Source: a virus. Taken from it: 47,065 bases of DNA. Positions within the stretch are counted from its first letter, which is position 1, and each line of letters begins with the position of its first letter. Below, one piece after another: positions 479 to 6,295 of this stretch. The DNA lies in the IMG/VR virus record IMGVR_UViG_3300008459_008730, positions 1 through 47,065 of that record. One strand, 5' to 3'. The position numbers and the translations under genes are program-made. The notes beneath the pieces are model-generated. The model did not search any database. It saw nothing but the letters and a program-made list of their open reading frames with translations, and was not told the origin of the DNA.

Positions 479-516
479 AATTTATTTCTCCTTTATGTCA
501 AAGAACAGTAACTAGG

Positions 517-672
517 CTGTCAGGGAAGGATTCGAACCTCCATGCTGTGATTCGGTAGTAGACAAAATAGCCGGCTTTGTGGTCAACCCATATCCAGTTA
601 CCTATCTCAAATTCAGCGCCCACGAGACGAGTGGGTGTGTATGCCGTGGATATATCCTTTCACCACCTGACA
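517..672 (-). ncRNA. tRNA-like element 2 with about 80-nt insertion
   Basis: The ends are tRNA-like: acceptor TGTCAGG pairs with CCTGACA, there is a T arm with TTCGAAT loop, and a short D stem (GTG/CAC) with GG in its loop. At 156 nt it is far longer than a tRNA. The middle holds a hairpin CCCAC-TCGTCTC-GTGGG; its 7-nt loop lacks the usual T33. The remaining interior reads as an open frame with protein-like composition (see findings). An inserted sequence, a decayed tRNA or a new structured RNA are all possible. Confidence 0.45.
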
Positions 673-677
673 ATTAA

Positions 678-905
678 TTAAAATATGTCGTTATTCCTTC
701 TCTTAGCTTCTTCGGCTTCTTTGTAGATACGAATCCAAATAAGAGTAATGTCGACAATAGCGAGTACGGGTGCAAAGACTATAATAGCAAGAGTTTCTAA
801 TCCCGGTGTAGTACCAGTGACGCCGTCCATAGAAGTACGTTTATAACTCTTAAAGACTCTCCAAAGACAGTACGTAACACTTACAAGATAGATATAAAAA
901 AACAT
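678..905 (-). CDS. Small two-helix membrane protein
   Basis: A 75-aa protein with two hydrophobic stretches (about residues 1-18 and 38-60), a basic connecting loop (KSYKRTS) and a charged C-terminus (KEAEEAKRRNNDIF). It starts 14 nt after the 3' end of tRNA-Leu and has no visible ribosome binding site, so it is probably translated from a message trimmed by tRNA processing. No family recognised. A holin-like role is conceivable from size and topology only. Confidence 0.6.
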   Translation of the reverse strand: MFFYIYLVSVTYCLWRVFKSYKRTSMDGVTGTTPGLETLAIIVFAPVLAIVDITLIWIRIYKEAEEAKRRNNDIF

Positions 906-919
906 AATTTAAACTTTAG

Positions 920-1005
920 TACCGGGAGCGGGACTCGAACCCGCACGGGCTTTTTCTGCCCAAAGGATTTTAAGTCCTCCTCGGCTACCTTTACGACACC
1001 CCGGC
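920..1005 (-). tRNA. tRNA-Leu (UAA anticodon)
   Basis: A complete class II cloverleaf. The 7-bp acceptor GCCGGGG/TCCCGGT includes two G-U pairs, with discriminator A. The D arm is TCG/CGA. The anticodon stem GAGGA/TCCTT encloses loop CTTAAAA (anticodon TAA). The long variable arm is GGGC/GCCC, and the T arm GCGGG/CCCGC has loop TTCGAGT. CCA is not encoded. It reads TTA codons, common in this AT-rich genome, and lies 15 nt downstream of the tmRNA, probably in the same transcript. Confidence 0.95.
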
Positions 1006-1020
1006 ATTGATTATAAAATG

Positions 1021-1463
1021 TGGACCTAGCAGGACTCGAACCTGCGTCTCCGAAAGCGATAATAATACTAACGTCTCACATGCTTAGTACTGTATTTCTA
1101 CTGCACCGTAGGGCTGACCTTTATGGTCGTTTCCACCACCTAGTTTACCAACTAGGAAATTACCTATCTTTTTACGACTTTAGCTTCAGTCGGAGAGATG
1201 ATTCAAGATGTCTCGAAGTCTCCCATTCCACGGTCCTTATTTAGCGAGTCGATCGTGAACGCTCAGAGTAGTTCTGTTCCTAGGTTACTCACCCGAGGCT
1301 AATTAGGCTGCTAGAGCGTAATCAGCGCCTACGAAAGACATTACGTCATCGAAGGTCATTGTTGACATTTCGTCAGTTATTGTTTGCAGTTTTTTAAGGC
1401 GACTCTACCAAACGCCTGCATGTAGTATTACCTCAACATCCGGATCAATTCCAAGATAGGCCC
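1021..1463 (-). ncRNA. ssrA: Transfer-messenger RNA (tmRNA)
   Basis: tmRNA rescues stalled ribosomes and tags the unfinished protein for degradation. The 5' end GGGCCTA pairs with the 3' TAGGTCC (7 bp), followed by discriminator A and a TTCGAGT T arm. Upstream of the tag lies CTTAAAAAACTGCAAACAATAACT, matching in layout the conserved E. coli region before its resume codon. The reading frame ends TAC GCT CTA GCA GCC TAA, encoding YALAA. At 443 nt it is longer than typical tmRNAs (350-400 nt); the extra length is in the tag and the pseudoknot region. CCA is not encoded. No smpB gene is seen, so host SmpB would be needed. Confidence 0.93.
1303..1374 (-). other. tmRNA tag reading frame (23 codons)
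   Basis: Taking GAC as resume codon, directly after AATAACT (equivalent to AATAGTC before GCA in E. coli), the tag has 23 residues. It begins DEMSTMTF and ends GADYALAA before TAA. Common bacterial tags have about 8-20 residues. The C-terminal ALAA is the established signal for ClpXP/ClpAP-type proteolysis. The exact resume codon is inferred; the frame and stop are not in doubt. Confidence 0.85.
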
Positions 1464-1738: not shown

Positions 1739-1990
1739 TTATCTGAATTGTGATAATACTTGAGTCAGTTGCGGTTTAGACATTACACCGGAGTTTCTAT
1801 AAACTATACTACCGTTACTCTCTACTAGGATAGTAGGAACGCTAGTAATACCGTACTTTTGTGCGAGATCTTTTTGAGTATCTACATCGACAATATTTAC
1901 ATTAATTCCAAGCTCTGACTGAACCTGTTGTAAGGTAGGTCTAAACATTTTGCAAGGGGAGCACCGTGATGCTGTAAAATAAAATACCAT
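1739..1990 (-). CDS. Thioredoxin-like disulfide reductase
   Basis: An 83-aa thioredoxin-fold protein. The redox motif is C10-S-P-C13 just after the first strand, and the cis-proline loop is SVPT. It is shorter than classical thioredoxins (about 105 aa) because the N-terminal strand and helix are missing, as in glutaredoxin-like phage thioredoxins. The likely role is to re-reduce the class II ribonucleotide reductase encoded at 17831-19690, whose C-terminus has the usual cysteine pair. That pairing is inferred from family knowledge. Confidence 0.88.
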   Translation of the reverse strand: MVFYFTASRCSPCKMFRPTLQQVQSELGINVNIVDVDTQKDLAQKYGITSVPTILVESNGSIVYRNSGVMSKPQLTQVLSQFR

Positions 1991-3161: not shown

Positions 3162-4826
3162 TTAGAAATTACCCATATTCATCTCTTCTTCCTTCTTTTT
3201 ATCGTCTTTTTTCTCAAAAATAACTGATTCAGTAGTAAGAATTGTTCCGGCAACAGAAGCTGCATTTTCGATAGCAGTACGTGTTACTTTAGCTGGATCG
3301 AGAAGACCTGATTCTTGGGCTGTAACTACGTTTTGAGTCTTAGCATTATAGGTAAACAGCATATCTTCACCGCCATTACCTACTAAGTCCATCCTAGCAT
3401 CAGCAACTTCTCTGAGAATAGAGTAGTAATCTTCTATTCCGCAGTTACTGAGAATTGTTTTAAATGGCTGAAAGCATGCTTTACGTACTATATCAAAGCC
3501 AAGCATTTCATCTGCAGAGACTTCTTTTGGTTTAATTGAAAGACCGTTAAATGCTTCGATAAGAGCAATGCCTCCTCCGGGTACTACCCCTTCTACGAGT
3601 GCTGCTTTAGTAGCAAATAAAGCATCTTCTACTCTATCTCTTTTCTCTTTAATTTCGATATCAGAGTTACCGCCTACTGAAATAATAGCTACACCGCCTA
3701 CCAGTTTTCCAAGCCTTTCTTGAAGCTTTTCTTTTTCGTAGAAAGAAGTAGCTTTTTCAACCTGATCTTTAATCTCTTCTGCTCTTGCACCAATCGCTTC
3801 TACAGTTCCTTGTCCGTCTACTACTGTAGTGTTTTCTTTAGATACGTTAACTATCCTAGCTTTTCCAAACATTTCTACAAGCTGTATAGGAGTAAGTTTG
3901 TCGAGTTTATGTCCTTTGTTCTTAGAAATAACTTGGCCTCCTGTTAGGATAGCTAGATCTTCTAGAATCAATGTACGCCTTTCTCCAAAATCGGGAGCTT
4001 TTACTGCTACTACACTTACAACTCCTCTCATTTTATTTACGATCAAAGTAGCCAACGCCTCATCTTCAATATCTTCTGCTACAACAAGGATAGATTTACT
4101 ATCAGAATTAGCTTTACTCAAAGCATTGAGAAGTTCTGCAGCTTTTGTAATACGTCCGTCGTAGATCATAATATACGGCTCATTTAGTACAGCCTGCATA
4201 CTTGTATTATTCGTAACAAAGTACGGAGATTTATAACCTCTATCAAATTGCATACCTTCTACGATCTCAAGACTTGTCTCTCCTGTTTTAGATTCTTCGA
4301 TAGTAACAATACCTTCACGGCCTACTTTCTCAATCGCCGTAGAAATTAACTCACCTACCTCGGTGTCATTATTAGCTGAAATAGTAGCTACTTGCTTAAT
4401 TTGATCTTGAGAGGCAATATCCTTAGCAATCTCTTTAAGCCTGCTAACAACCTGTCCTACATACTTATCAATACCTTTTTTTACTTCTACGGGATTAGAA
4501 CCTTGGTTAATCAACTTCAGACCCTCTTCTACCATAGTAGTAGCAAGTAGAGTGGAAGTTGTAGTACCATCGCCTGCTTCGTTAGCAGACTTAATGGATA
4601 CCTGTTTTACAAGCTGTGCACCGAGATCTTCTACTTGATCTTCTAATTCATGAAAAGAACGAGCAACTGTAACACCATCCTTAGTTACTTTAACCTCTCC
4701 TGATTGTTCTTTAATTAAGACTGTTCTACCTCCAGGGCCTAGTGTGGAAGAAACTGATTGATTTAGTTTCTTAATACCTGCTAGTAGTTTGTTCTTTAAT
4801 TCTGTTCCGAAAACTGTTGTTGTCAT
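3162..4826 (-). CDS. groL: Chaperonin GroEL
   Basis: A 554-aa group I chaperonin subunit of normal length. Visible hallmarks are LGPGGRTV near residue 30, the ATP-site loop [11 protein letters not shown] near 87, and GGGIALIEA near 410. The C-terminal tail is acidic and lysine-rich, ending MNMGNF in place of the GGM repeats of many bacterial GroELs. It forms double rings with GroES, encoded 1 nt upstream. A phage copy probably folds abundant virion or replication proteins. The sequence looks Bacteroidetes-like by eye, but no alignment was done. Confidence 0.98.
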
Positions 4827-4827
4827 A

Positions 4828-5118
4828 TTAAGCTATTTTTGAGTAAATGTCTTGTTCTTTGCAAATAAAATATTCGTCACCTTCTACTGTAATTCTTACA
4901 GAACCTAACTTTGGAATAAGGACTTTATCTCCAACGGAGAGTTGAGAAGGTACAAACTTATCTGAGTTGTAGTTATAAGTTTCTGAAATAGAAACTACTT
5001 CTCCCATCTCTGGTCTTTCTTTTCCGAGATCTGGAATAACAATGTTACCGTACATCTGTTCTTCCTCTTCGATCGGTTTAATAACGATGTAACCGTTTAG
5101 TGGACTTAAATTACTCAT
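4828..5118 (-). CDS. groS: Co-chaperonin GroES
   Basis: A 96-aa GroES. It has the N-terminal strand LNGYIVIKPIE, the mobile-loop region after EEEQMYGNIVIPD, and the C-terminal pattern VGDKVLIPKLG...YFICKEQDI. The mobile loop reads MYGNIVIPDLG, with the hydrophobic triplet IVI that binds GroEL. It is placed immediately before groEL, the common bacterial order, and both are probably translated from one message. Confidence 0.96.
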   Translation of the reverse strand: MSNLSPLNGYIVIKPIEEEEQMYGNIVIPDLGKERPEMGEVVSISETYNYNSDKFVPSQLSVGDKVLIPKLGSVRITVEGDEYFICKEQDIYSKIA

Positions 5119-6201: not shown

Positions 6202-6295
6202 TAGTCAGGACAGGATTCGAACCTGTGTAAAGTTTACAAGCTTTAACTACCACATTCATTAGTGGTATGCGTTATACCTATTCCATCACCTGACT
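6202..6295 (-). tRNA. tRNA-like element 3 (class II shape, odd anticodon loop)
   Basis: 94 nt, with acceptor AGTCAGG/CCTGACT, discriminator A, a T arm ACAGG/CCTGT with TTCGAAT loop, and a long variable arm (TAAAG/CTTTA) typical of Leu/Ser/Tyr tRNAs. The D arm (ATG/CAT) has GG in its loop. The anticodon stem TACCAC/GTGGTA is strong but encloses 8 nt (TAATGAAT) with no T at the expected position 33, so I do not assign an anticodon. A good promoter lies 28 nt upstream, so it is probably transcribed. CCA is not encoded. Confidence 0.6.

Follow-up and report, generated by a model that had tools for sequence, protein, structure and literature searches.

tmRNA was found in 402 of 18,146 phage genomes in one survey (PMC9004378), and the mycobacteriophage Wildcat tmRNA is described as its most highly expressed lytic gene (PMC7474061). 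The tags that tmRNAs encode span 8-35 residues according to a review (PMC8012679). In E. coli, A86 sets the tag frame four bases downstream; the same study reports that the tag template tolerates change and that, in one assay, phage propagation did not depend critically on tag function (PMC2481249). Two phage tmRNAs may be compared with the one described here. Mycobacterium phage Nappy (NC_023725), a Bixzunavirus of the Bxz1 type, has a one-piece tmRNA (84 bits) with a long tag, and Cellulophaga phage Calle_1 (MT732432) has an annotated Bacteroidota-phage tmRNA (86.6 bits).

Here we analyse a virus record of 47,065 bases from an uncultured phage, called the window throughout, meaning the whole stretch. 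Its minus strand at 1020-1463 almost certainly encodes a tmRNA with a long tag. Judged by its sequence, the RNA is probably a working phage tmRNA: its tRNA-like domain is complete and carries the alanine identity pair, and there are also a resume signal and a tag frame that evolves as a translated one.

The tmRNA gene and its surroundings

The preliminary description of this DNA had proposed a phage-encoded tmRNA at 1021-1463, strand unstated, to be checked by covariance model and ARAGORN. The Rfam model RF00023 matches 1018-1463 on the minus strand with 59.1 bits, against a cut-off of 47 (E 1e-20), and ARAGORN agrees, calling a one-piece tmRNA at 1020-1463 on the same strand. The score is low, and the region 3' of the tag fits RF00023 poorly. 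The permuted two-piece model RF04321 gave 20.1 bits, below its cut-off of 47; the Melnitz phage tmRNA is phage-encoded as here but is circularly permuted and in two pieces (PMC9004378). The features of the gene are as follows.

1020..1463, minus strand: one-piece tmRNA gene, body 1463-1021, discriminator A (A73) at 1021 (RF00023, ARAGORN, sequence)
1457..1463, minus strand: 5' strand of the acceptor stem, GGGCCUA, with G3 of G3-U70 at 1461 (sequence)
1022..1028, minus strand: 3' strand of the acceptor stem, UAGGUCC, with U70 at 1024 (sequence)
1029..1045, minus strand: T arm, GCAGG-UUCGAGU-CCUGC, intact (sequence, RF00023, alignment-derived structure)

The ends proposed earlier are thus exact for the RNA body without CCA, 1463 being G1 and 1021 the discriminator A, and the paired acceptor ends, intact T arm and YALAA-stop tag frame that had been claimed are all present in the sequence. 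The acceptor has seven pairs, GGGCCUA (1463-1457) with UAGGUCC (1028-1022), G3-U70 included; CCA is absent from the DNA, which has ACAU in that place. G3-U70 is the mark recognised by alanyl-tRNA synthetase, and both it and A73 are present. A GGG start and a U in the U70 column occur in 20 of 20 aligned family members (MAFFT alignment, read by hand). Both ends could be located in 92 of 110 loci with tags of type I (below), by a script that favours GGG starts and with the other 18 dropped; G3-U70 and A73 are kept in 91 of these 92, the exception, L181, looking like a one-base misplacement by the script, and CCA is encoded in 22.

Covariation among the 20 aligned members supports the structure, which RNAalifold derived from that same alignment. 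Standard pairs fill 95.9% of cells over 36 pairs, with double changes at 23 of them, although in nine of the 20 rows a leading gap led MAFFT to shift the first helix by one base, so that its per-pair counts are approximate. None of 500 shuffles reached any of five measures, and structures slid along the alignment paired in 41-52% of cells. The T arm and the long helix that connects the two domains are both present, the six helices being paired in 97.5-100% of cells, helix 5 excepted at 83.5%. The Rfam alignment of the window omits part of the region after the tag, and RNAalifold by design shows no pseudoknots (PK1-PK4).

That the tmRNA is phage-encoded, as first claimed, is supported by its neighbours, which include GroEL, family-A DNA polymerase and tail-sheath genes, and by its presence in a longer contig of the same phage and in relatives. 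The window also encodes DnaB and ribonucleotide reductase; over the 5,500 bases compared, it matches part of the longer contig, G001 (73,670 bases), without a difference. The nearest isolate is Flavobacterium phage immuto, with 56.0% identity in DNA polymerase, 53.8% in GroEL and 52.2% in the sheath (over 80% of the query); the order DNA polymerase, GroES, GroEL is common to both. From this likeness a flavobacterial host is probable, though immuto itself yielded no tmRNA with RF00023 over the whole record, and ARAGORN, run on four pieces that left out 109,001-111,999, returned three tRNAs only. For the phage of the window, a Bacteroidetes host is plausible only. The nearest features are these, the counts of homologues referring to loci fetched by three patterns.

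515-672, minus strand: structured tRNA-like RNA of about 157 nt, just downstream of the tmRNA (covariation on 38 copies)
678..905, minus strand: 75-residue open reading frame, homologue in 47 of 177 loci
919..1005, minus strand: tRNA-Leu(UAA), just downstream of the tmRNA (ARAGORN, Rfam)
1739..1990, minus strand: thioredoxin-like protein, upstream of the tmRNA, homologue in 30 of 177 loci
3162..4826, minus strand: phage GroEL, homologue in 18 of 177 loci
4828-5118: 96-residue open reading frame ahead of GroEL, at the position of GroES in immuto

Two further minus-strand tRNA genes, at 5-75 and 6202-6295, were found by Rfam and not by ARAGORN; both begin AGUCAGG.

The RNA at 515-672 drew no ARAGORN call and matched no Rfam family at its cut-off. 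BLAST found copies at 64 loci, with up to 97% identity, and an anchor search gave 60 distinct copies in 89 loci, some from the same contigs (for example L336:6064-6222 and L365:2063-2222). The RNA combines an acceptor stem of 7 pairs, a D-arm-like part into which a hairpin is inserted, and an anticodon-like stem whose loop, UCGUCUC, is nearly fixed; a T arm is present, and some 77 bases replace the variable arm. In 38 of the 60 distinct copies, aligned and used both to derive the structure and to test it, pairing holds in 98.4% of cells, and double changes are seen at 28 of the 42 pairs; none of 500 shuffles reached four of five measures and two reached the fifth. The single sequence folds no better than its shuffles (z -0.03). 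Self-complementary loops occur in 18 of 18 distinct hairpins of the long insert, and in 14 of 23 of the D-insert as against 7.3% in D-insert shuffles; as speculation, such loops would suit two molecules pairing by their loops. The pattern of this RNA matched 58 virus stretches; among 31 of the underlying records, a tmRNA scoring above cut-off is present in 12. When as many as 3 mismatches were allowed, the pattern was found in 16 of 47 virus records, nearly all of them known to have a tmRNA; immuto gave no match, and the isolate collection had none at E 0.01. Among the open-licence literature matches listed, none was by its title plainly about such an RNA, which is undescribed as far as the literature and Rfam searches reach.

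Reading frame and length of the tag

Two tags can be read from the gene.

1303..1374, minus strand: tag reading frame DEMSTMTFDDVMSFVGADYALAA-stop, with resume codon GAC at 1374-1372 and UAA at 1305-1303, giving 23 encoded residues after the tmRNA-borne alanine
1303..1326, minus strand: shorter tag ADYALAA as called by ARAGORN, which we judge an under-call

A resume signal, U-A-A-C-U, lies at 1379-1375, directly before G1374. Of 121 distinct family records, 120 have the context [UC]AA[AC][UC]-G ahead of the long tag, and the single deviating context, AUAAUU-G, retains the A; as the search expression itself contains that A, the count demonstrates the existence of the context and not its invariance. 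If translation instead resumed at GCU (1326), the product would be ADYALAA and the upstream codons would be an RNA spacer. ARAGORN calls this tag, and the UAGGC before GCU resembles the UAGUC-GCA of E. coli (PMC2481249). At this site, however, the base four before the codon varies: among 93 distinct type I sequences it is A in 65, U in 26 and C in 2, so that 28 of the 93 lack the needed A. Change of A86 to C or U left no measurable activity in an E. coli KanR assay (PMC2481249).

The codons upstream of GCU are also under coding constraint. Across 45 distinct cores of 13 codons, the tag frame has a pN/pS of 0.262, as against 1.347 and 1.880 for the other two frames, and mean entropy at codon positions 1, 2 and 3 is 0.443, 0.215 and 0.935, the third being the most variable (permutation p 6.5e-4); the cores are stretches from a tag-independent scan, but their selection with a loose motif biases the set towards conservation. 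Constraint is weaker in the last seven tag codons (pN/pS 0.483). Moreover, ARAGORN itself prints the full-length tag in five of 14 listed family tmRNAs (L003, L012, L339, L342, L343). Because of the resume signal, the coding constraint and these full-length calls in relatives, we favour the 23-residue tag over ADYALAA, and consider resumption at GCU highly improbable.

In the other nine of the 14 listed tmRNAs, some of them from the same phage, ARAGORN gives only the last 7-8 tag residues. Annotations built on ARAGORN can consequently carry wrong tags, and for phages the tags that this standard finder prints may be incorrect.

The tag of the window has a net charge of -5, in keeping with the earlier account of it as 23 residues long, acidic and longer than usual; it is longer than the 9-residue GExNYALAA tags of 11 tmRNAs, a length that the search pattern itself fixes. 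Acidity is not general in the family, since a type II representative has a net charge of +1. An amphipathic helix was considered and rejected, the hydrophobic moment being above that of within-peptide shuffles in none of six tags, and the tag gave no match to solved proteins at E 10.

Tag classes, their spread and their exchange

The tags of the family fall into three classes without evident likeness to one another: type I (DEMSTMTFEDLMAFVGADYAVAA and kin), type II (DNKKSRQEIGASIINMAFANVAVAA and kin) and type III (ATRQERIAEGEAILASIFNEEFALAA and kin). The type I pattern searched for in DNA (S-T-M-T-[FY]-[DE]-D-x-[MV]) matched 110 virus stretches, all 110 of which read on as such tags; three run off their stretch (L169, L176, L186) and two have odd ends (L210, L221). 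The latter two are retained in the type I counts, as are the tags of a sub-group that ends in ADEATFA, without -AA (L104, L146, L171, L174 and L175, on four contigs, L104 and L175 sharing one). Of 25 stretches matched by the type II pattern, 24 read as type II tags. A pattern in the 3' domain, independent of the tag, matched 95 stretches, of which 87 were read (8 left out) and 81 gave tags, all of 23-27 residues, the other 6 yielding no tag by the rule. With all scans pooled, and one of 121 records dropped by the resume rule, the tag has 23-28 residues in 118 of 120 distinct records, and 29 and 32 in the remaining two, perhaps through a misplaced start. Within a class the tag sequence is kept; between classes the length is kept and, mostly, an A-x-A-A end, with -AA closing nearly every tag read.

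This last feature bears on the proposal that the RNA is a decoy that, without tagging, occupies the stalled ribosome or the SmpB of the host and so prevents the host's own trans-translation. Mycobacteriophage DS6A has little beyond a tRNA-like domain, and a similar molecule inhibits tmRNA (PMC4131195). A full tag frame that is kept by purifying selection and ends in -AA almost throughout the family would be superfluous in a decoy, and we regard it as very unlikely to be what the window encodes.

Among 50 records of relatives, all of them fragments and selected through their GroEL or DNA polymerase, 21 gave an RF00023 score above cut-off. The model misses some members, since the L174 and L146 tags sit in contigs of G019 and G020, where it gave nothing. 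Members of the family score 30-89 bits, against 130-169 for seven tmRNAs with bacterial-type tags, which suggests that the family tmRNAs have long diverged. In the genomes of 84,980 cellular species, scanned for the type I motif only, a single unrelated stretch was found, in an archaeal bin and without tag context. These results bear on a further possibility, that the gene is a decaying fragment of host ssrA left by imprecise excision, which is how prophage ssrA fragments are explained in PMC9004378. Broken tag frames or acceptor stems would then be expected in most relatives, and the opposite is seen, namely an intact structure with compensatory changes across the group. Together with the long divergence and the type I result in cells, this makes a decaying fragment barely conceivable.

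Among isolated phages, tblastn with one type I and one type II tag gave no match at E 10, short queries making this a weak test. DNA similarity to the tmRNA was found in 64 isolate records, none with 80% coverage, and the 20 rows listed cover 6-7%.

Comparison of hand-picked sequences indicates that tags have been exchanged between the backbones that carry them. In the part that precedes the tag, L110 (type III) and L113 (type I) agree at 92.4%, and in their final 80 bases at 93.8%; their tag peptides are unlike. Conversely, L100 and L096 share 93.3% of the tag and 93.6% of the middle, yet their ends are just 70-72% alike. Unlike tags on near-identical backbones, and shared tags between diverged ends, imply that the tag can move as a unit between backbones. 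By eye, near-identical blocks of several tens of bases also lie 3' of the tag in otherwise diverged tmRNAs (L096, L100 and L101; L098, L106 and L113). Such blocks, common to the regions after the tag, suggest mosaic exchange beyond the tag itself.

Recent exchange of this kind, as between L100 and L096, is also what would be expected if the tmRNA were functional and its extension had no function of its own, having arisen by drift or spread as a recombination cassette. The tolerance of the E. coli tag template to change points the same way (PMC2481249). Such an extension is harder to reconcile with a pN/pS of 0.262 over the 45 distinct cores, or with a length of 23-27 residues in 81 of 81 tags despite unlike classes, and we think it rather unlikely.

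A possible role for the long tag, and comparison with known tmRNAs

The preferred reading, that of a working phage tmRNA whose long tag includes a segment for delivery, may be set out as follows. Host alanyl-tRNA synthetase would charge the phage tmRNA, and host SmpB would bring it into stalled ribosomes; the ribosome would append alanine and DEMSTMTFDDVMSFVGADYALAA to the unfinished protein and then be freed. The YALAA end would pass that protein to a ClpXP-type protease, either that of the host or, in some relatives, perhaps one with phage ClpP. The extra 14-19 residues before YALAA would form a delivery segment specific to the phage, acting as a longer flexible leader or as an adaptor docking site, such that phage-tagged proteins would be degraded differently during infection. 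The preliminary description had likewise suggested that the tag could change which proteases act on tagged proteins, or that the RNA could free ribosomes stalled as host mRNA is broken down; both may hold. This explanation taken whole is, on the strength of sequence comparison, probably correct. The proposal that the extension in particular is a delivery segment that alters degradation is more tentative, though it is a real possibility. The main grounds for thinking that the extension matters are that tags exchange as units, that their sequence is kept within a class, and that their length and, mostly, their end are kept across classes; the E. coli findings on tag tolerance and phage propagation given above (PMC2481249) count against it.

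No SmpB gene was found in the two partial records of this phage. Among 44 records, all fragments, SmpB was found in one, G046 (2.3e-47). The same phage record (L237, L342) also has a type I-like tmRNA, tagged AKVELSTWTVEDALAFVDGEYAVAA.

ClpP was found in nine of 38 records, which were not assembled to compare phages that have a tmRNA with those that lack one; the two records of the window phage gave no match. In six of the nine (G057, G061, G052, G060 and G058, loci L335-L339, and G049, locus L340) the ClpP gene shares the strand of the tmRNA and is located 3.1-5.4 kb upstream of it, whereas it is far from the tmRNA in G043 and G046, and in G020 the tmRNA is unplaced. Five of the six linkages have one common gene order, so that there are perhaps two independent linkages of ClpP to tmRNA. 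The G057 ClpP has matches among solved ClpP chains (best 2.1e-15); the Ser and His align, and the position of the catalytic Asp is, by visual reading, Glu. The search placed one TAA within the ClpP match in G049 and in G020, yet G049 has an open frame of 184 residues.

A bolder proposal is that these phages have a tagging code of their own, in which the type I, II or III extension would be a second, phage-specific signal for a degradation machine that the phage supplies or modifies, for example the ClpP encoded near the tmRNA. We consider this unlikely. Were it true, phage-tagged proteins would be handled apart from host-tagged ones, and the swapping of tag cassettes would be a means of escape or of re-pairing with a matching reader. 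More generally, the tag may serve the phage itself, given long tags in many related phages and a searched class, type I, that was not found in cellular genomes. A large group of phages with their own long tags, in at least three interchangeable versions, the tested one of which is unseen in cells, offers a direct handle on why phages carry tmRNA.

With respect to known systems, the window tag lies inside the 8-35 residue range of the review (PMC8012679) and is shorter than that of Nappy, ATDTDATVTDAEIEAFFNEEAAALV, which has 25 residues by our own reading. The host of Nappy belongs to another phylum, and its tag differs from the window tag in sequence and in its ALV end; by inspection, neither the Bixzunavirus tag sequence nor its end is shared by the window tmRNA. 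The Nappy tag is, we presume, close to the published Bxz1 tag. The tmRNA of Calle_1 comes from a Bacteroidota phage, as that of the window plausibly does, but its tag, AQIEANMEAVNAILNLEVAVGV, has 22 residues by our own reading and ends in AVGV, and Calle_1 belongs to the Pervagoviridae, unlike the window phage.

The YALAA end has its nearest counterpart in the GExNYALAA tag, which we take to be the Bacteroidota type. A pattern for it matched 12 virus stretches, 11 of which are tmRNAs by ARAGORN, with 9-residue tags that start at nt 95-97; when eight loci were tested with RF00023, seven gave the 130-169 bits noted above and the eighth, L355, was not a tmRNA. In nine hand-picked members of our family the tag starts at nt 89-94. 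The family thus shares the place of tag start, and the window tag the YALAA end, with the GExNYALAA tmRNAs, but the phage tag is 14 or more residues longer.

Six bacterial tag strings were absent from the open-licence literature searched. Neither a phage tmRNA nor a tag of more than 20 residues is new; as far as our searches of the open-licence literature reach, what is new is the tmRNA family described here, the classes into which its tags fall, the exchange of these classes, and the finding that type I is absent from those cellular genomes that were searched.
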